A stretch of DNA of 64,000 nt from Leptolyngbya ohadii IS1 (lineage in GTDB: Bacteria > Cyanobacteriota > Cyanobacteriia > Elainellales > Elainellaceae), in contig NZ_NKFP01000003.1 in the NCBI RefSeq assembly GCF_002215035.1, forward strand, positions 136,437 to 200,436. The letters run 5' to 3'. A program made the translations under genes and the position numbers. Shown one piece after another: positions 51,172-64,000 of the stretch; the first letter of the stretch is position 1; each line of letters begins with the position of its first letter. The notes under the pieces were generated by a model that did not search any database, was not told the origin of the DNA, and was given only the letters and a program-made list of their open reading frames with translations.

Positions 51172-51389
51172 TCCCCATCTTCGGGTTTAGGTAGCATTGG
51201 AACAAAAAACAACGCTTGTATTTTAGGAAGGGTGTGGTAGACCGGAACAACGCAGGTTCTCGAAACCGCGCTTAGCATTGGTCGCCACACGCTTCAATTT
51301 CATCTCGAACAGTTGCCTGGGCATTCTAGCCCGCATCATGCAAGCGCGAGGGTTGTTGGAGCATTGTTCTGGAATAGAGGTTGTCAGCT

Positions 51390-52467
<1,078 letters not shown>

Positions 52468-54069: not shown

Positions 54070-54498
54070 CTAATCTCCCAGCAATACGCGAATTGCTCTC
54101 AAAGCTTGACTTCGCCTTCCGTTCGACACTTTTGCAAACCAGTAGTGCGATTCCTCATTACTCATCGCCCTCACTCCAGCCGTAATATTCGCAATTCGCT
54201 CCGGCTTCGAGAGCGGCTGCAACGTCTGAAATAGCAGTGCCAAGTTCACCCCCGACTCTTCATTCAGCACATAAGGGGTCTGTCGAGACTGGCTTAGCGT
54301 CTTCGGGTCATACCCATTTGCCTTTAGACAGTCATAAATTGCCTGCCGTGCCTGCACCAACGCCTGCCCCTTCAGCCGCCCAACCCGCTTTGCCGAAGGA
54401 CGCTTCTTCTCGCCTGCCTTCTTATAGGCACACTGATATAGCTCCAGGGCAAAATTGTTATTGTCAGTGGGGACAACGCGAAGCTGGAATTCCTGCAT
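54070..54498 (-). CDS. Small protein downstream of the DUF499 ATPase
   Basis: A 142-aa protein, starting MQEFQLRVVPTDNNNFALEL. It is basic (KKAGEKKRPSAKRVGRLKG) and ends helical (HYWFAKVSNGRRSQALRAIRVL). It lies 50 bases after the DUF499 gene in the same direction, so it is probably part of that unit. DUF499 genes are often followed by small dedicated partners; I do not recognise this one by name. Confidence 0.6.
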   Translation of the reverse strand: MQEFQLRVVPTDNNNFALELYQCAYKKAGEKKRPSAKRVGRLKGQALVQARQAIYDCLKANGYDPKTLSQSRQTPYVLNEESGVNLALLFQTLQPLSKPERIANITAGVRAMSNEESHYWFAKVSNGRRSQALRAIRVLLGD

Positions 54499-54548
54499 AG
54501 GACGGGAGGCAACATAGCGAACAGCGATCGGGCAAACGCCCCATCAGA

Positions 54549-57500
54549 CTAATATGTTACTCGCGCTGTCAAGTTTATGCGATCGACCGGATTACGTCCC
54601 AAAGCTTGAGCGATCGAGCGAATTTCCTGCCCCTCTGGATCAACAGGAGACGGGAATTCTATGACCAGCTTCAGCAGCACATTTGCCTGCACATCCGGAT
54701 TGCCGAGCAGCGTATTGGTTGGCGTCAGGAAGCTCTGGAAGCCGCGCATCGGTCCCTGATATTCCAGTCGGACAAACTGATCGCCCGTCTGAATCGTCAC
54801 CGTTTGGTCAATCTGGATCGGGAACTTTGCCAGGAGCGGCAGTGCGGTTGTGAGTCTGCGGTAGTCCATCACCTGCCCCACTGAAAGCTCTAACGCTTTA
54901 ATGCCCTTAATCTTGTGATCAAAGACCCGATCGCCTAGCTCGTTAAATACACTATTAGGTGTGCCCTCCAGGTCAAACTGCTCCGGCTTCACAGCAAATA
55001 ACGTTGCACCATTGCTGACCGTGGGACTGCCATTGCTCGTGCCGCTATTGCCATAGACCAGCACTTTCGCTGTCGTCTCAGCCTGGGCAGTCTCGCCGCT
55101 GCCGTAATCTGCCACAATCCGGAAAACCGTTGTCTGGGCAATCGTCCCCTCATACTCATCGGATGGACGAAAATCCTGCCCGATCAGATTGCCATCCTGG
55201 TACAGACTCACCGTAAGTGACCCCTGCGCTCGCCAGCGAACCCGCACAGGTTTGGTTGTCTCGGTGCTGGGCATGACCTGGGCACTCAACTCAACCTCCC
55301 TCGGCTTCGGCAGCTCCAAGACGCCCCGACGGTACAGCACCATGCGATCGGAAAACTCGATCGTGTCAGGTAGGGCAGGCAACCCCTCGTTGGTTTTAAT
55401 GAATATTCGATCGCCTGCTTTCAAATCCCACTGTCCGGTCTGAAGACCCTGCTTAATCGTGTCACGGAGCTTTGATACCTCTGCATCCAGCAGGATGTTG
55501 AGTCCCAGATCCTTCGCAAACGCCTCACGCAGCATCTTTGTTGTCCAGAAATCCAGTCCGGCTGCCCAAACCTTCTGCAACACATAGGCAGGCGCAAAAG
55601 GCGGGGCATCCTCTGAACGTACCTTTTGGCAGTCCTTCAGTGCTTTTAGAATCACATCCTGCTGGTTGTTCTTGCCCTTCACATCCCCAGAATCCTGAGC
55701 CGGGAGCGGATAGTGCATTAGCCCCTTCGCTGCCTTCACCGAATCATTGGACGGATAGAACAGATGGCGATAGGCATTTGTGAGGGCAACCCGCACACTC
55801 AAATCCATACTGCCTGCTTTGTCCTTAAGCTGCTTTTGCTGGCTCTCCGATAAATCCTCCAGGCGGTGGGGCGACTTCAAAATATTGTTGATTGCCCGAT
55901 ACTCCCTGGCAAGATCGATCGCCCGCTCTAGCTCCTGCCGATTTGCCACCAGAAACAGCAGCCGATTCCGAAAGGTGCGAAACTTCCCGGACTCGCCCGT
56001 GTTATTGAAAATGCGATCGACGACTGGGGGCGGGTCATCTGTCGAACTCTTGACCGTATCTTCGTCAAAATCAATCAGACAAAGCGCAACCGAGTCTGCG
56101 ACATCATCCACATCGGCTGGACTCTCCGGCGCAGAAATGAGCTTGAAGAACTTGTCTGCAAAAATCGTATCCCGCCGCGATCGCAGGTCATCTTTTGCTT
56201 CTCCGCGTCCTACCTGCTCTTTCTCTTCGGCAATGATCTTGTTGATCGAAGGCTCTTCTTTAAAGCGGGCGATCGAGGTAATCGGATCGTTGTCGAGATA
56301 CCAGGCAACTGTAGAAAGTCGCTCCAGGGCAGTCTCTACAAAACCAGCTTCCACACCGGGAGTCAGCAGAGACAGATTTAATTCAGGGCGACGAATGCCA
56401 GCCGTAATCCCCTGGTTAATCGAGTGCAGGAAAATCGTGCGGCTGATCCAGCTAGAGAAAGGGGGCTTTCCGGCTGCCAGCCATTCCTGATCCTGAAACT
56501 GGGCATGAGCTTCTCGACCATCCGGGTTATAAATGTCAGCCTGGATCGGGATTCGCATCAGCGGACGTTCTAGCCGGGACGTAAGATCGCTCGTAATCTC
56601 CTCGTCAACGCCGATCGGTAAATGATGAGCATGAATTAGCGGCGTCCAAACTGAAGGGTCACGCCAGAGGAACCGAGCAACTCTGGCAAACAATCTCAAC
56701 GCGCCCCTGGTGCGCTGGAAGTTGGGAATCGAAGCAATTTTCTTTGTGAGTAGTCCAAATAGCTCCGGGTGGAACGGATAGCTGTCCTGGATAATTTGGG
56801 CGTAGTGGCTATCCTTACAGCCATCTGGCAGAGTGAGCCGACTGGCGCGGTACGTGCTGAGGTATTCCCGTGCTGCGGCTTCAGCCGCTTTTTCGCTGAC
56901 ACTTGTGAACACCCGCTGCTTCACAATGTTGTAAACCTCGACATCGGTACTGGGACTCAGCACCCGTTCCTGGCGAGCAGAAGCCTGAATAGCTTCTCGA
57001 ATATCGATCGTCTCTTCCCCGAAGCTATCCGAAGACGAAGCCAGCGCATATACAAAAACCAGATTGTTGCAGGCTGCCGCCAGATCCATCAGCGAAAACA
57101 GGAAGGCAACCACCTGGGCTGCCAGATCGCTGTTTCCCACCATCGTCGCTTTTGCGGCTCTCAGATGCCGTGCAATCTCATCCAGCACAATTAGAGTGGG
57201 CTGCCCATTTGTTAACCGCTCCAATACCACAGTTCCTGGACTGACCCGTTGCTCATCTGATCCCCGGAGCAGGCTGTATCCGTTCACGCCACCAATCTGA
57301 TACGCAATTTCGCCCCAGAGCGTGTAAGTGCGAATTCCTGTTTCGGGATGGTACACCCCATTAATCGGGTCAAGATCCTGACAGGCGATCGCGGCAACCT
57401 GGATCGGGCGATCGGGAATTAGCTTCAAATCCACAAACCGATCTAGCCCCTCGATCGATCGTCCCTGCTTCGCAATATGCCATAGCGCAATCTCATCATG

Positions 57501-57767
57501 CGTTTTGCCGCCGCCAAAGCTGGTTTCCAAACGAATAATGGGAGAGCCAGCCGATACGCCAACCAGCCGCCCAAAGACCTCTGAAATGAGCGTCTTCAAT
57601 CCATCTGTGGGAAAGGTGTTGGCGAAGAAGATGCGAGGATCTTGATAAACCTGTGGTGCATTCCCTTCCACAACCAGCCGTAGCTTGGCAGCAAACAGGT
57701 CAAGGGATAACTCGCCTGCCAGAATCTCATCTCTGGGAATACAGGTATCAAAAATAGAAGACAGCAC
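54549..57767 (-). CDS. DUF499 ATPase (BREX/DISARM-like defence component)
   Basis: A 1072-aa P-loop ATPase. The N-terminus (IPRDEILAGELSLDLFAAKL, PRIFFANTFPTDGL) and Walker A ETSFGGGKTH (81-90) are hallmarks of DUF499. Walker B is LIVLDEIARHLR (Asp196-Glu197). The remainder includes a helical region and a C-terminal Ig-like/beta domain (RVRWRAQGSLTVSLYQDGN). DUF499 ATPases co-occur with DUF1156 methylases and PLD helicases in defence islands. Here the partner genes lie about 13 kb away, beyond intervening DNA. Confidence 0.88.
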   Translation of the reverse strand: MLSSIFDTCIPRDEILAGELSLDLFAAKLRLVVEGNAPQVYQDPRIFFANTFPTDGLKTLISEVFGRLVGVSAGSPIIRLETSFGGGKTHDEIALWHIAKQGRSIEGLDRFVDLKLIPDRPIQVAAIACQDLDPINGVYHPETGIRTYTLWGEIAYQIGGVNGYSLLRGSDEQRVSPGTVVLERLTNGQPTLIVLDEIARHLRAAKATMVGNSDLAAQVVAFLFSLMDLAAACNNLVFVYALASSSDSFGEETIDIREAIQASARQERVLSPSTDVEVYNIVKQRVFTSVSEKAAEAAAREYLSTYRASRLTLPDGCKDSHYAQIIQDSYPFHPELFGLLTKKIASIPNFQRTRGALRLFARVARFLWRDPSVWTPLIHAHHLPIGVDEEITSDLTSRLERPLMRIPIQADIYNPDGREAHAQFQDQEWLAAGKPPFSSWISRTIFLHSINQGITAGIRRPELNLSLLTPGVEAGFVETALERLSTVAWYLDNDPITSIARFKEEPSINKIIAEEKEQVGRGEAKDDLRSRRDTIFADKFFKLISAPESPADVDDVADSVALCLIDFDEDTVKSSTDDPPPVVDRIFNNTGESGKFRTFRNRLLFLVANRQELERAIDLAREYRAINNILKSPHRLEDLSESQQKQLKDKAGSMDLSVRVALTNAYRHLFYPSNDSVKAAKGLMHYPLPAQDSGDVKGKNNQQDVILKALKDCQKVRSEDAPPFAPAYVLQKVWAAGLDFWTTKMLREAFAKDLGLNILLDAEVSKLRDTIKQGLQTGQWDLKAGDRIFIKTNEGLPALPDTIEFSDRMVLYRRGVLELPKPREVELSAQVMPSTETTKPVRVRWRAQGSLTVSLYQDGNLIGQDFRPSDEYEGTIAQTTVFRIVADYGSGETAQAETTAKVLVYGNSGTSNGSPTVSNGATLFAVKPEQFDLEGTPNSVFNELGDRVFDHKIKGIKALELSVGQVMDYRRLTTALPLLAKFPIQIDQTVTIQTGDQFVRLEYQGPMRGFQSFLTPTNTLLGNPDVQANVLLKLVIEFPSPVDPEGQEIRSIAQALGRNPVDRINLTARVTY

Positions 57768-57951
57768 AGTGATGCGACTCCGCTAGGCTAGGACGGTGGG
57801 TAGAGCAAAAGCCCTTATTCCATTATTCCCGCACCTTTATGAAACTCCGAACAGGTTGTCGATGAAGTTTAGGGATGAATTATCTATCAGATTCTAAAGA
57901 AGACGATGCCGCTGTTCGATAGAATCAATTGGACTGGAATTGGAAGGGGCA

Positions 57952-59055
57952 ATGGGCAGCGAACCGTCAAAGTCGAGCTACGAGACTTTCTTGCGAGATC
58001 TCAAAGAGCGGATTCAAAATGCTCAGGTGCGAGCCGCCTTAGCTGTTAACCGGGAATTAACGCTCCTCTACTGGCAAATCGGTCGAGAAATTCTGCATCG
58101 ACAGCAGCAGCAGGGCTGGGGAGCAAAAGTGGTGAACCGATTAGCAGCCGACCTGCGTAAAGCATTCCCCGATATCAAAGGATTCTCAGCTCGTAACCTG
58201 CTCTATATGAGGGCATTTGCTGAAGCTCACCCGGATGAGCAAATCGTGCAACAGGTTGTTGCACTAATTCCCTGGGGGCACAATGTCCGCATTTTAGACG
58301 CTGTAAAAACGCCAGAAGAACGGATGTGGTACATTCGGCAGACGATCCAGTATGGCTGGAGTCGCAATGTCCTGACGCATCAGATCGACAGCCAGCTTTA
58401 TCGCCGCCAGGGTAACGCGATTACCAACTTCGATCGGGTTCTGCCTAATCCTCAGTCTGAGCTAGCGCAGCAGGTCGTAAAAAGCCCGTACTCCTTTGAT
58501 TTCCTCAGTCTGGGCAAGGAGGCACTGGAGCGCGATTTAGAAACTGCCTTGATTAGACATATTCGGGAGTTTTTGCTGGAGTTAGGGGTTGGGTTCTCGT
58601 TTGTCGGCAGCCAGTATCCTCTGATTGTAGACGGCAAGGAATACAGAATCGATTTGCTGTTTTACCACTTTCGGCTGCACTGCTTTGTGGTCATCGATTT
58701 GAAAGTGGTCGAATTCGAGCCGGAGTTTTCGGGCAAGATGAATTTCTACGTTTCAGCAGTGGATGATTTGCTGCGGGGTGAGGGCGACAATCCAACGATC
58801 GGTATTATCCTCTGCCGCACCAAGAGTAAAACGGTTGCAGAATATGCCCTGCGCGATGTTCATAAACCGATCGGCGTTTCGACTTACCACATGGGGACTC
58901 CGCTTCCCGAAGAGTTCCAGCGCAGTTTGCCCACCCTGGAAGACCTCGAAGAAGAAATCGAGGCAATTGCCACTGAAGTTGAGCAAACGCTAGCGTCAAA
59001 AGAAGCAGAACAGCTTACTTTATTTGCTGACACGACATTGAACGATGAAGAGTAA
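57952..59055 (+). CDS. YhcG-type (DUF1016) PD-(D/E)XK nuclease
   Basis: A 367-aa protein starting at ATG 57952, with GGAAGGGG just upstream. The N-terminal DUF1016 part has NRELTLLYWQIGREIL and WGAKVVNRLAADLRKAFP. The C-terminal nuclease fold has GKEYRIDLLFYHFRLHCFVV followed by IDLKVVEFEP, giving the Asp and the D-x-K motif. YhcG proteins are predicted DNases often found with restriction and BREX/DISARM islands. It is divergent from the DUF499 gene. Confidence 0.88.
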   Translation: MGSEPSKSSYETFLRDLKERIQNAQVRAALAVNRELTLLYWQIGREILHRQQQQGWGAKVVNRLAADLRKAFPDIKGFSARNLLYMRAFAEAHPDEQIVQQVVALIPWGHNVRILDAVKTPEERMWYIRQTIQYGWSRNVLTHQIDSQLYRRQGNAITNFDRVLPNPQSELAQQVVKSPYSFDFLSLGKEALERDLETALIRHIREFLLELGVGFSFVGSQYPLIVDGKEYRIDLLFYHFRLHCFVVIDLKVVEFEPEFSGKMNFYVSAVDDLLRGEGDNPTIGIILCRTKSKTVAEYALRDVHKPIGVSTYHMGTPLPEEFQRSLPTLEDLEEEIEAIATEVEQTLASKEAEQLTLFADTTLNDEE

Positions 59056-59536: not shown

Positions 59537-59908
59537 TTACTCCTCCTGGGCAATGCGATCGTTGTAAGGGGGACGAACTTGTCGCAAGACAATCTGCTCT
59601 AACTGTAATGATAGCCTAGCCCAAGGAAAAGACAGTCGGGCAACTGCAATCCGAACATCGTCTGGGTCCAGCCGGTCAATAAAAGCCCATCCCAGAGCCT
59701 TATGTCCTCCTCTCAACCTAGAGCGAACATTGCCCGATTTACCAATATACAAAATGCCCATAGTGCGGTGCTTGATGGCATATAGTCCGGCACCGTTGGG
59801 CAGTTGGTGGAACTCTCGACTCAGCACATAGCATTCCTTAAAGGGTGTTTCCACAAGAATGACAAGGAGACGGTCTGCCTCCTGTCCTAAAGATTTCTGC
59901 TCAACCAC
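59537..59908 (-). CDS. GIY-YIG nuclease-domain protein
   Basis: A 123-aa protein starting at GTG 59906-59908. The domain is compact: GAGLYAIKHRTMGILYIGKS provides the GIY- and YIG-equivalents, followed by NVRSRLRGG. The later metal-binding Glu is likely in QLEQIVLRQVRPPYND. GIY-YIG enzymes cut DNA. It ends four bases before the start of the duplicated small protein, so the two genes are probably co-transcribed in the replication region. A role in plasmid processing is inferred. Confidence 0.78.
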   Translation of the reverse strand: MVEQKSLGQEADRLLVILVETPFKECYVLSREFHQLPNGAGLYAIKHRTMGILYIGKSGNVRSRLRGGHKALGWAFIDRLDPDDVRIAVARLSFPWARLSLQLEQIVLRQVRPPYNDRIAQEE

Positions 59909-59952: not shown

Positions 59953-61746
59953 TCATTCTGGAAACTGCATGGATGATTCTAAGAGAGAAAGCTGACTTAC
60001 ATTCAAGATGTCAGGGTTAACCTGTGCCCATGCCAGTGCCTCTGCCACCAGAATTGGATCACCAGACGCTAAAAACTGCTGCATTTGAGCAACCATCCTT
60101 GTTTGAGAAGCTTCTTGCTGAATACGTTTTCGCTGATAATATGCCATTCGGACAGCTTCCTGACGGGCTTCTTGCTGTGCCTTGATATCAAATAAGACTT
60201 GCTGGATATATTGGGCATTCTGCGGGAATTGAGACAGATCATTAGTAGACGCAGAACTAGAAGAATTACTTCCTGTAGATTGCTCTGGACGACTGGCTTG
60301 ATCAGTGAAACCCTTGCCAGGAGTATTATCACCGTCTGCTATAGGTAATAAGCTTGGAGGACTGTGGTAGTTAGATGCGGTTTTAGCGCAATCTAACTGG
60401 CTGTCCAAATTGAAGCTTGGGGGGTGCGGGGGGTTTTCCACAGGTGATTGTGAGAAGGTTGTGAAAGTGTTGCAGCAATCAGTCTCAAAATAATTGGGAT
60501 GCCAGAGGTCACGGTGGCGATAAAGCGATCCACCGCCAATGCCGTATTTTAGTAATGATTGGAAACGGGCAGTTGGCTTAATTGGGAGACTTTCGTTTTC
60601 TAATAAATCAGCGATTGCGCGTCGAATTCGATCTCTGGTTGCCGCAGCTTGCCGCTGATTCCAAGACGGTGACCGAATGATCGCTTCTTTGAGTTCTGGG
60701 TCTTGAGGTTCTGGTTTATCTTTCTTCGGCTGATCTCCAAAGTGGAAATAACGGCTGTTTTCGATGCAACGCGCCCATTCTTCGGCTCGATGTTCAATCT
60801 CATGCTGATGACGGCACCACTCCTGGTATCCAGGAAGTGATTGGGCAGTTTCAACGATCTCACTAATCAGCGCATCTCCTTTCAGGGGTTCTCCGCCGGA
60901 GAGGATGTGGTGAAAAATGTATGCCCGCATTGTGATCCGACCGAGCAGACGATTCGTTTGCCCGTGACTTGTCCAGCCCAGCTCAATCTCGGCGTTTAAG
61001 TCATTAATGAATTTCTCAGCTTTTCCTGAGATACCAAAATGCTTTCGCTTCGATTGTTTCAGAACCTGCTTGAGCGTTTTGCTATCGATATTGTTTTGTT
61101 GCTGGGTGAGTCGCCACTGCTTCACAAAGGTCTGAGAATGACTCCAGATTGGCTGGAACGTTTTATCGAGTAAGTACGAGCCGAGCTGAAGGGGAAGTCG
61201 GTGGGCGTTAAACAGACTTATATTTCCATCGGCTGCATACGGCTTGGGATTGGGAAAAATCTCAAGCTGCCCAGGTTGAAGTTTAAATCCGGCATTTTCT
61301 AGCAAGCAGGCGAGGACGATCGCAAGCTGCCATGAGCTTTGAGTTTCCTGAAAGGGAAAGTAGAGGTGCAATCCGCCACTGTAGCTGGAGGTGCAGGCAA
61401 TGTAGCTCACAAGTCCCAGCGGTTCTAAAGCCGCCACAATTCGAGAAATGGCAAATGGATCGTGATTCGGGTGATAGTGGCTGGCAGCGTCAATATCGAC
61501 CAAGCCGTAATTTGTTTCTGCACCAAACCGGACGCCGAAAAGATACGCCCCCTGTCTGATCAGGCGATCGCTCAGAGGATGGCGACTTTCTGTTTTCCAT
61601 TCAGGGTCTTTACCCAGATTGGAATGTTCTGCCCAAATGTAATCGAACCGATGCGGAAATAGAGCAAGGAACTCGTCTTCCCATTCGGGCACGTATCTAA
61701 ATAAAGGGTGGGCGGCATCAGAAGGCGTTGAGGCTGGGGGACTCAT
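59953..61746 (-). CDS. Primase-polymerase-like replication protein
   Basis: A 597-aa protein from ATG 61746; the open frame extends to a TTG at 61836, but this lies inside a palindrome. An archaeo-eukaryotic primase (PrimPol) core is visible: YGLVDIDAASHYHPN gives the Asp-x-Asp motif and SYSGGLHLYFPFQ the His motif. A helical middle part contains NRLLGRITMRAYIFHHILSG. The tail is Gln/Ala-rich coiled-coil. Such proteins prime DNA synthesis of plasmids. It is adjacent to the iteron array. Confidence 0.7.
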   Translation of the reverse strand: MSPPASTPSDAAHPLFRYVPEWEDEFLALFPHRFDYIWAEHSNLGKDPEWKTESRHPLSDRLIRQGAYLFGVRFGAETNYGLVDIDAASHYHPNHDPFAISRIVAALEPLGLVSYIACTSSYSGGLHLYFPFQETQSSWQLAIVLACLLENAGFKLQPGQLEIFPNPKPYAADGNISLFNAHRLPLQLGSYLLDKTFQPIWSHSQTFVKQWRLTQQQNNIDSKTLKQVLKQSKRKHFGISGKAEKFINDLNAEIELGWTSHGQTNRLLGRITMRAYIFHHILSGGEPLKGDALISEIVETAQSLPGYQEWCRHQHEIEHRAEEWARCIENSRYFHFGDQPKKDKPEPQDPELKEAIIRSPSWNQRQAAATRDRIRRAIADLLENESLPIKPTARFQSLLKYGIGGGSLYRHRDLWHPNYFETDCCNTFTTFSQSPVENPPHPPSFNLDSQLDCAKTASNYHSPPSLLPIADGDNTPGKGFTDQASRPEQSTGSNSSSSASTNDLSQFPQNAQYIQQVLFDIKAQQEARQEAVRMAYYQRKRIQQEASQTRMVAQMQQFLASGDPILVAEALAWAQVNPDILNVSQLSLLESSMQFPE

Positions 61747-61821
61747 CTGGCTATCAGTCTTCTTTGAGAAGAAAATGGATGCCAAATTGTGCCAAATTTT
61801 GAAAAACCCCGTTTGGCGCAG

Positions 61822-61843
61822 GATCAGTTTGATCAAACTGATC
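61822..61843. promoter_or_regulatory. Perfect 22-bp palindrome upstream of the primase gene
   Basis: The sequence GATCAGTTTGA (61822-61832) is followed directly by its exact reverse complement TCAAACTGATC (61833-61843). It ends 76 bases from the ATG used for the primase-like gene. A perfect palindrome here is a candidate operator for copy-number control. Confidence 0.65.
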
Positions 61844-61898
61844 AGGGTGTAGTAAAAGCGGTAGAGCCTTTATCTGGTAAAGCTTCTCATGACCTTAC

Positions 61899-62532
61899 TG
61901 TGAGACGATCCGGGCATTTTGTGAGGCGATCCGGGCATTTGTGTGAGTTCATTCGGGATCAACTGTAGTACGCTGAAATCTGCTTCCATCAGGGATTAGA
62001 AGCCAATTTTGAAGACAAAATTTTTTACTACAAGGCAGTTTTGTAGTGATCAGTAGAACGAAGTGAGCAGGAATAAGGTAATTTTGTGAGCCGATCCGGG
62101 AAATTTTACCAGTTGAAGCAGGTCGTTCTAAATGGCTGAAAGCTTGATAAATACTGAATTGTCGGTCGGTTGGCAGGATTTGTTTCTACTACAACGTAGC
62201 TTTGTAGTGATCCGCGATTCATAATATTCCAGAAAATCAAGACTCTTTGTGAGCCGATCCGGGTGTACTTTTAAGCCTAGACTAATTCTCAAGATGAGCT
62301 AAGACTATTGCAGGACAATCTTTACAGCAATTTTTCTGGAATCTGTTTTTACTACAAAATTGTCTTGTAGTGATTTCTCAACTCTAGAAATCTACGAATT
62401 AAATGTTTTGTGAGCCGATCCGGGGCAAATTTGAACGTGGGGTAAACTTCATCAAAGACCTGAAAGCCTTGTGTGTTATGGCTTTTAGAGAGATCAAAAA
62501 AGCAGAGCTTTTACTACAGACTCTTTTGTAGT
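61899..62532. repeat. Origin-like array of iterons and hairpins with about 162-bp period
   Basis: Iterons with the core TGTGAGCCGATCCGGG start at 62085, 62248 and 62409; variants TGTGAGACGATCCGGG and TGTGAGGCGATCCGGG lie in tandem at 61899 and 61920, with a decayed one at 61942. Hairpins of ACTACAA/TTGTAGT arms start at 62027, 62188, 62351 and 62513 (last with one mismatch). Spacings are 161-163 bases for both elements, and each iteron lies about 58-60 bases after a hairpin. Located between the primase and Rep genes, this is most likely the replication origin with Rep-binding sites. Confidence 0.8.
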
Positions 62533-62668
62533 AGACCAGATGAGGGAAAAATCAGGTTTTACCTGTTTTTACAGGGCGATCACCTGAAAGAGCGATGTGC
62601 CCTCGACTGCGCGGCTCTATGGGTTGTTTAGGAGTGTTTTTGGCAGCAGAAGGAGTCGGCACGTAAAT

Positions 62669-64000
62669 CTACAGTTTCAGAATCGATCGCAAATCGGCTT
62701 CCATTTCAGGAGTAGGTTCCCGCCGACCGGATTCAATGTGAGAAATAAGCTGCTGGGAGACTCCCAACATACCTGCTAATTTTGCCTGACTCCATCCTTT
62801 ACCCTTGCGGGCTGTCTTAACCTGTTCCCCTGTTAGCGGAGTAGCTTTAGCCGGTGATAACTGTGGTTTGGAATTACGGCGATCGCTGAACTTCTTGCCC
62901 TTCTTCCGTTCCAATAGCGTTGGGATAGGTTCGGGTGGACGGATAATCAGTTTGCTTTCAAGCAGGATATTGATATATCCTTTGGGTTTTCGAGTTTTAC
63001 TATCAGGTCTGAGCGACTCTGGATAATTCTGGTCAAATTCGACCGTCCAACCCAGTTTAATCAGAGTTTTAAGAGCCTCATTCCACTGATCGACTAAATC
63101 CCGTGCTTTGTAGCGATCTTTGAGAGCCTGTTCTAGCTTGGTTTGGTAGCCAATTAACAGGGATTCCAGAAGCGTTTTAACTTTGTACTCGCCGGAGGTG
63201 TGAATTCGGCTTTCGACTGTTAAATGAAGGGCGAGGCGTAGCGCAAGTTCATTGTGATAAGGATCAATCTTGAGGACGCTCTGAGCGAGATAGCCAAATT
63301 GGTATAGAGCTTCCTTCGCTTTTGCCCCACCGCGATTGAGAAATCCTTTAGTCCAGAGACCCGGTTGAACCTGAAGTTCTACCCTTTCCAGGTTTTCGAT
63401 TTTTCCGGTTAACAAACTTTTCTGCCCTGTTGCGCTGATGCCAATATTCCACATCCGGGAGGTTTGAATCGTAACCTGGGTTTTTCGCCGGTTGATTTGT
63501 CCTTCTTTCCATTCCACCTTAACCAGCAAACAGTCCAGGGCAAAGGCGCAGCTCGCGAGTTCTGAAAGTTTCTGATGCACCGAAATATCCTTCCGGTTAT
63601 TCCAACCGAGATTGCGGATGACATCCTCGCCTGAAAGCGTAAAGCTGCCGCTCCAGGGTTCCTCCTGATTCATAGCGTGGGCTGCCAGGATCATCTGGAG
63701 CTTGACCGTATTAAATCCAAAGTTATTGATGATCTTCTCGGCGGCATCCCAGGGAAGGGTTGTAACATCACCGGGACTGGAGATGTAATGCTCGATATAG
63801 TTCTGGTGATTGCTTTTGGCAATTTTCGAGAAAACGGCAATTCCATCGCGATCGTACCAGAGGTCTTTCCTCAACTGGGATTCCAGTGAGCTGATAAAAG
63901 GTGCGCCTGTCGGGATTGGCTCAATATGGCTATTTAGGAAAAGTTCAGCTTCTTTAGGCGAGTTGATAATGCTGGAATTAATCAGGTTGTTTAGCTCACT
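62669..64000 (-). CDS. Plasmid replication initiator-like protein (Rep), N-terminus beyond window
   Basis: The frame is open from the stop at 62669 to the right edge, so the true start lies outside; at least 443 codons are seen. The C-terminus carries an XRE-type helix-turn-helix (LTGEQVKTARKGKGWSQAKL and VSQQLISHIESGRREP). The central region (WDAAEKIINNFGFNTVKLQM, LSGEDVIRNLGWNNRKDISV) resembles winged-helix replication initiators of cyanobacterial plasmids. A linker is basic and Pro-rich. It would bind the neighbouring iterons. The identity as initiator rests on both fold impression and position. Confidence 0.72.
   Translation of the reverse strand, partial: SELNNLINSSIINSPKEAELFLNSHIEPIPTGAPFISSLESQLRKDLWYDRDGIAVFSKIAKSNHQNYIEHYISSPGDVTTLPWDAAEKIINNFGFNTVKLQMILAAHAMNQEEPWSGSFTLSGEDVIRNLGWNNRKDISVHQKLSELASCAFALDCLLVKVEWKEGQINRRKTQVTIQTSRMWNIGISATGQKSLLTGKIENLERVELQVQPGLWTKGFLNRGGAKAKEALYQFGYLAQSVLKIDPYHNELALRLALHLTVESRIHTSGEYKVKTLLESLLIGYQTKLEQALKDRYKARDLVDQWNEALKTLIKLGWTVEFDQNYPESLRPDSKTRKPKGYINILLESKLIIRPPEPIPTLLERKKGKKFSDRRNSKPQLSPAKATPLTGEQVKTARKGKGWSQAKLAGMLGVSQQLISHIESGRREPTPEMEADLRSILKL

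Follow-up and report, generated by a model that had tools for sequence, protein, structure and literature searches.

A probable iteron-type replication origin in Leptolyngbya ohadii IS1 with a second class of sites that tracks the XRE recognition helix of its predicted initiator

Iteron plasmids with initiators of the RepE/pi type, such as F and R6K, combine a winged-helix initiator with tandem direct repeats of 21–22 bp beside rep, and the extra repeats of both plasmids are candidate copy-control sites. The locus described here, from the cyanobacterium Leptolyngbya ohadii IS1, is alike in the predicted initiator fold and in the tandem repeats, and its extra units are likened to the extra repeats of F and R6K. 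By contrast, it has an XRE domain fused to the C-terminus of the initiator, a primase gene on the far side of the repeats, and a second class of sites that tracks the recognition helix of the XRE domain and has a geometry of its own. The iterons are called A and the second class B hereafter. The repressors of phages 434 and P22 (c2) have the same XRE fold, and the 434 operator, of the ACAA type, resembles the ACA(A) end of B; here, however, the XRE domain forms the tail of an initiator, and most B sites are single half-sites.

The best fold match of the initiator core is RctB, from the chromosome 2 origin of Vibrio cholerae, at about 10% identity over the aligned core. RctB is one initiator acting on two site classes with opposite effect, according to the accessible part of PMC5395669, which mentions neither an XRE tail nor B words for RctB. 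It offers a precedent for a single initiator reading two classes of sites; the role of B here could be either positive or negative. Among the CyRepA1 replicons, pSYSA of Synechocystis requires slr7037 plus the ssr7036/asRNA1 locus for its replication (PMC9978351, accessible part). CyRepA1-family proteins are encoded by the far-side gene at three of the loci compared below (L165, L170, and L177), whereas a PrimPol-like gene takes that place in L. ohadii. The accessible part of PMC10899382 reports CyRepX1/2 on pSYSX and describes the information on plasmid Rep proteins in cyanobacteria as limited. No description of the present Rep family or its origin was found in the titles and abstracts of the literature searched, which lay mostly outside subscription journals, and the novelty of both is provisional.

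The predicted initiator, its primase neighbor and their distribution

The stretch of DNA analyzed (64 kb, hereafter the window) comes from contig C3 (243,519 bp), which carries both a ParA-like gene and a ParB gene and is probably a plasmid. No tRNA genes were detected in the window, and the GC skew of C3 gave no clear signal. The array of repeats had been placed upstream of rep in a preliminary description of this DNA; it is in fact located downstream of the initiator (Rep) gene and upstream of a gene for a PrimPol-like primase-polymerase. The 3′ part of the Rep gene occupies positions 62669–64000 (minus strand) and encodes a predicted winged-helix core and a C-terminal XRE domain. The full ORF has 568 aa and begins about 375 bp outside the window (L009:3105-4811).

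The XRE domain, whose recognition helix reads SQQLISH, matched PF01381 (E 1.2e-11; 44.8 bits against a cut-off of 23) and was the only part matched, since the core had no Pfam or NCBIfam match. The structure was modeled for a 443-aa part of the protein (mean pLDDT 88.2), and in this predicted model the core aligned with domains 2–3 of RctB (5tbf; Z 11.8, rmsd 5.2, 248 aligned) and with RepE54 (Z 9.0–9.1), displaying the paired winged helices of an iteron-type initiator. The modeled XRE domain aligned with P22 c2 (Z 9.4, 36% identity), and the 434 repressor was matched at E 1.4e-4. Foldseek alone gave 5tbf as the best match of the model at E 1.5e-3 and no match at 0.001 or below. Residues 375–384, between the two parts, were modeled with low confidence, and this linker is probably flexible.

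The neighboring gene (59953–61836, minus strand, 627 aa) is delimited by its longest ORF with a TTG start, and an ATG at 61746 is the likelier start. Region 51–267 of the predicted protein aligned with the CAPP Prim-Pol 7nqd (Z 15.7, rmsd 4.0, 190 aligned), so that the AEP catalytic fold is present in a model weaker than that of Rep (pLDDT 69 overall). PrimPol homologues adjoin the array in relatives, and the far-side partner varies among them, being a PrimPol, a PriCT-2 or a CyRepA1-family/DUF3854 protein. Family scans of partner proteins covered eight proteins, the window Rep and PrimPol included, plus seven more; no meaningful family was found in them for the partner of L169 (539 aa).

The Rep family was found in 46 cyanobacterial plasmid records, in 40 of 60 related genomes and in 105 of 194 genomes of the class (E 1e-20). 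A GTDB-wide scan with a cyanobacterial query gave 91 loci, the best 80 of which all had cyanobacterial titles, while the 10 pattern matches of the window Rep in a viral_contigs scan included no relative. As judged from sequence, this is a widespread initiator-like family of cyanobacteria. The order of Rep, repeat-rich gap and primase-type gene was observed in plasmids 1–3 of Leptolyngbya sp. NIES-3755, plasmid1 of L. boryana NIES-2135 and pMB01 of Acaryochloris, and the expectation that related plasmids keep the layout held for many cyanobacterial plasmids. Among the 22 Rep-bearing loci of named plasmids (L048–L053 and L165–L180), 15 had an assigned B word, one had a B word by geometry alone (L171) and one had its own B word upstream of rep (L175). 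No B was found by any test in L052, L168, L172, L173 and L176, and the rep reading frame of L052 is interrupted. On some of these plasmids par genes lie near the Rep locus.

The A and B elements of the array

The array consists of an A element, TGTGAGNCGATCCGGG, with copies at 61899, 61920, 62085, 62248 and 62409 (spacings of 21, 165, 163 and 161 bp), and a B dyad, ACTACAA-N7-TTGTAGT, with copies at 62027, 62188 and 62351 and an imperfect fourth one at 62513–62532 (spacings of 161, 163 and 161 bp). The recurrence of A and dyad every 161–163 bp, already noted in the preliminary description, is real, and its coordinates were right. The tandem iterons at 61899 and 61920, reported there as strict, are present with one mismatch each against the consensus, and a degenerate third member, two single B sites and a palindrome had been overlooked. 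Clusters of A and dyads occur at this site alone in the 7.9-Mb genome. Elsewhere in it, A (up to two mismatches) had three scattered matches, the number obtained with a reversed-pattern control, and the dyad (up to one mismatch) had none (control 0). The window-type iteron was found in its own genome only, out of 36 genomes of the order.

The core origin spans positions 62047–61822. It starts with B-alpha, which is the first dyad (62027–62047) and was assigned from the core geometry in relatives, followed by B-beta, a single half-site TACTACA (61964–61970, minus strand). About 5 nt further on lies A1, the degenerate first iteron of the triplet (61942–61957), and then A2 (61920–61935) and A3 (61899–61914), all three on the minus strand. 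The single half-site B-gamma (61848–61854, minus strand) lies 116 bp from B-beta and is adjoined by the perfect 22-bp palindrome GATCAGTTTGATCAAACTGATC (61822–61843). On the rep side of the core, three accessory units of about 162 bp contribute minus-strand A iterons at 62085–62100 (unit 1), 62248–62263 (unit 2) and 62409–62424 (unit 3), dyad 2 (62188–62208), dyad 3 (62351–62371) and the imperfect dyad 4. No Rfam family matched positions 61500–62900 at the gathering threshold. One promoter-like site (shuffle mean 1.6) and three terminator-like sites (mean 0.8) were found between 61700 and 62700.

Core geometry and the correspondence of B words with the recognition helix

Across plasmids the core reads B-alpha, about 63 bp, B-beta, about 5 nt, and iterons 21–22 bp apart, with B-gamma 113–116 bp past B-beta. 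For the counts, loci more than 97% identical or with less than 250 nt downstream were removed, which left 107 of 165. A search with the word W left free (the reverse complement of W, 58–66 bp, W, 110–120 bp, W) found 30 of these 107 loci, and W was the B word in 26 of them. Dinucleotide shuffles yielded 1.3 loci on average and never more than 3, and the same search gave 5/107 upstream and 4/107 inside rep. The triplet words TCTAGA, TTCTAG and AGCCTC (L053, L114, L115, and L140) were set aside as not B. When 5-mers of the assigned B were used, distances of 63–66 bp (alpha to beta) and 113–116 bp (beta to gamma) were obtained in 26 of the 54 B-assigned loci; the geometry was absent in the other 28, the TGATTACA type included. 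The best lag past B-beta was 21 or 22 in all 26 core loci, with at most 3 of 200 shuffles as good in 21 of them and 8 to 62 in the other five, and the three A repeats spaced by 21–22 bp agree with the tandem repeats of about 17–22 bp beside the initiator gene that mark an iteron-type theta replicon. The first iteron begins, as judged by eye, about 5 nt after the ACA of B-beta. The palindrome after B-gamma was equaled by at most 4 of 100 shuffles in 14 of the 26 core loci and not distinguished in this way in 12. The recurrent spacings are the core ones (about 63 bp, about 115 bp, about 5 nt and 21–22 bp; 26/54 loci).

Additionally, three loci without a downstream array (L090, L109, and L114) have the B word of their helix type upstream of rep, in 9, 26 and 8 copies. 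The array is thus not confined to one side of rep, and some groups have all of it upstream.

The B words vary among plasmids and share the ending ACA, and in relatives B is usually a one-sided word with polarity and no partner arm. This element, described at first as a hairpin, is better read as a site for the XRE tail of the initiator, which also accounts for it better than the second protein proposed at the time. The pairs of helix and word include SQQLIS with TACTACA, SxDYIGK with RAGACAA, HQSLIAK with TATGACA, SQGLIS with TGATTACA, SQKMIS with TGAGTACA, TKMW with AGTAAACA, TKAWLC with GTTAACA and DRSLxTR with RTTGACA, among others. When 14 helix types were cross-tabulated, 71 of 94 loci had at least three copies of their own group's word, and in the remaining 23 it occurred fewer than three times within 1.5 kb (or the shorter flank) on either side. 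Only 10 of 1,222 off-diagonal cells reached this number of copies, three of them trivially, as nested words. The words in this table were picked from the same data; the geometry search with free W and a label permutation served as the controls that assume none. In the permutation, with any 7-mer allowed, 61 loci were observed against a null mean of 27.9 and a maximum of 35 (0/1,000).

Across these loci the B word follows the recognition helix of the XRE domain. In partial Mantel tests on the 54 B-assigned loci, the correlation of B with the helix given the core was 0.53, and that with the core given the helix was 0.47 (0/2,000 in both); since B tracks the core given the helix, shared ancestry explains part of the covariation. 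At 60–70% core identity, all 85 pairs with like helices agreed in B and none of the 20 pairs with unlike helices did. Below 35%, only 4 of 74 pairs with like helices (at least 6/8) agreed, and the B words of SQKMIS proteins differ from those of SQKLIS proteins; the helix by itself thus falls short of a full code. B behaves as would an operator of an XRE (HTH_3) domain, in that its sequence follows the helix, with exceptions at low core identity, and a helix-to-site correspondence that may be readable from sequence is suggested.

A natural pair was found in Pleurocapsa MO_192.B19 (L059) and Waterburya KI4 (L060). Their cores are identical at 308 of 361 positions (85%), and the A iteron sequence ACTCTAGTATCCC and the palindrome are alike. 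The recognition helices, TQTLVGYW in L059 and SQSLVKMW in L060, share 4 of 8 residues, and the core B sites are GAAAACA and GAGTACA, respectively. The whole XRE domains are identical at 45 of 59 positions, so there are differences outside the helix too. The core of L059 is also shorter: B-gamma lies 72 bp from B-beta and a single iteron is in register, against 114 bp and three iterons in L060. Replicons that coexist in a genome had like B words in 1 of 13 pairs (null mean 2.08, not significant); within-genome diversity of B was thus no greater than chance and was rejected as a signal of incompatibility.

Proposed mechanism, alternative explanations and related loci

The array region is best read as an iteron-type replication origin of a cyanobacterial plasmid served by one bipartite initiator of 568 aa, with its winged helices on A and its XRE domain on B, a reading to which we assign a probability of about 0.8. 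The preliminary proposal of a composite origin with two classes of elements and a Rep is supported in this respect. From the computed anatomy, its recurrence and the tracking of the helix by B, together with the modeled folds, we infer binding, initiation, priming and copy control as follows. The RepE/RctB-like winged-helix core would bind the A iterons, and the C-terminal XRE domain, past the low-confidence linker, would bind the B words. The functional core would comprise B-alpha, B-beta with the three A iterons, B-gamma and the palindrome, followed by the primase gene. The short distance from B-beta to A1, about 5 nt, could allow a single Rep monomer to occupy these two keys at once through its flexible linker. 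Rep would then assemble from B-alpha to B-gamma and open the origin DNA, the neighboring PrimPol (elsewhere the PriCT-2 or CyRepA1-family protein) would prime synthesis, and the extra 162-bp units would titrate or handcuff Rep.

We tentatively extend this to a widespread two-key class of cyanobacterial replicons, at slightly less than even odds, in which a slowly changing iteron key, read by the core, and a fast-changing, evolvable XRE key would both have to be read at a fixed spacing (ACA-N5-iteron) for replication to start; a few helix substitutions with matching changes in B might then create a new replicon identity without cross-talk with the parent. The analysis gives a probable origin anatomy for a widespread cyanobacterial initiator-like family. 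It also makes testable how coexisting plasmids acquire separate replication identities, because the two loci of the natural pair have nearly the same core and iteron but unlike helices and B sites, and it points to a possible source of compatible vector sets.

The correlation of B with the Rep core given the helix, and the adjacency of the primase and Rep genes, would also fit a B word bound by another protein, either the primase or a separate XRE regulator, with the covariation due to joint inheritance of the replicon. This is improbable, since L059 and L060 differ in helix and B at 85% core identity, and since the primase type changes while B is constant (PriCT-2 in L048 and PrimPol in the window, both with TACTACA). 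Nor was B recovered as an autoregulatory operator, the own word not being enriched upstream of rep (3 hits against a mean of 4.6 for the other words, over 50 loci with an assigned B). A classical iteron origin in which B acts as DNA structure, through hairpins for cruciform or single-strand initiation, has in its favor that the single-stranded dyads of the window fold, if weakly (−2.8 to −3.5 kcal/mol, z −2.5 to −3.4), and that the palindrome folds better (−7.2, z −6.0). It is very improbable all the same: the words of relatives mostly have only one arm, and B-beta and B-gamma of the window are half-sites too. Least probable of all is that the array is a partition site and not an origin. Although the repeats lie between plasmid backbone genes on a contig with par genes, the distance to the ParB gene is about 19 kb and that to the ParA-like gene about 31 kb. 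In many plasmids the neighbor of the array is a primase gene, and the protein whose XRE helix B follows has the fold of an initiator.

With the bipartite-initiator origin as the preferred reading, the three extra copies of dyad plus A between rep and the core are most likely copy-control sites that titrate or handcuff Rep. None of 300 random placements reached the same-strand B periodicity at 162 bp. Each of the three units has exactly 87 nt between A and the next dyad, and the distances from dyad to A are 37, 39 and 37 nt. The sequence between the elements has diverged, as first described, with spacers aligning 1.0 to 2.3 SD better than shuffled sequences in six comparisons. It was also suggested that the phase had been selected for looping, and an exact 87-nt spacer kept despite this divergence does leave room for selection, by which the phase itself might place Rep complexes for looping or handcuffing. 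However, looping finds no support in relatives or in helical phase: the three closest relatives, of the same B type (L048, L055, and L056), have the core only, and 161 and 163 bp amount to 15.3 and 15.5 turns at 10.5 bp. A significant B period was detected in 5 of the 54 B-assigned loci (162 bp in the window, and 106, 78, 79 and 41 bp) and in none of the other 49, and the weak residual similarity of the spacers fits an old tandem duplication. With the units missing from the closest relatives, and the period different or absent in other plasmids, selection for looping cannot be regarded as established; a selected phase is unlikely, and the 162-bp trait looks lineage-specific by sequence comparison.

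A rep relative broken by stop codons was found at another locus (L019/L181, G055 contig 33). Its decaying origin retains a recognizable B dyad, B-beta and A1, with an altered B-gamma and no 162-bp units. The L. ohadii genome itself contains a second, divergent module on its largest contig, C6 of 4.26 Mb (L204:9167-13591), with a DRS-type Rep, a PrimPol of 612 aa and six [AG]TTGACA sites within 1,500 nt upstream of Rep. Among 14 other genomes with the DRS-type Rep, 10 have a PrimPol on its other side and 12 have at least four [AG]TTGACA sites. A conserved chromosomal origin was considered for these homologues on large contigs and rejected, the four flanking genes tested from the L. ohadii module being all absent from the other 14 loci (stretches of 12–18 kb). 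Since the layout of Rep, PrimPol and sites recurs with none of these four genes shared, the modules are suggested to be integrated replicons. GC skew was also uninformative in the 5.8-Mb chromosome of a relative, for which 20 windows were sampled. Two further Rep homologues on C6 (L016 and L018) had no B array in the flanks examined, and array-less homologues recur in other genomes.

Moreover, the window contains a cluster at 54070–59055 with DUF7680, DUF499 (1072 aa) and a YhcG-type PDDEXK nuclease, possibly a defense or restriction-related island. An apparently disrupted transposase-like gene extends over two overlapping frames at 51381–52467, and a GIY-YIG domain protein is encoded at 59537–59908, immediately downstream of the PrimPol gene.
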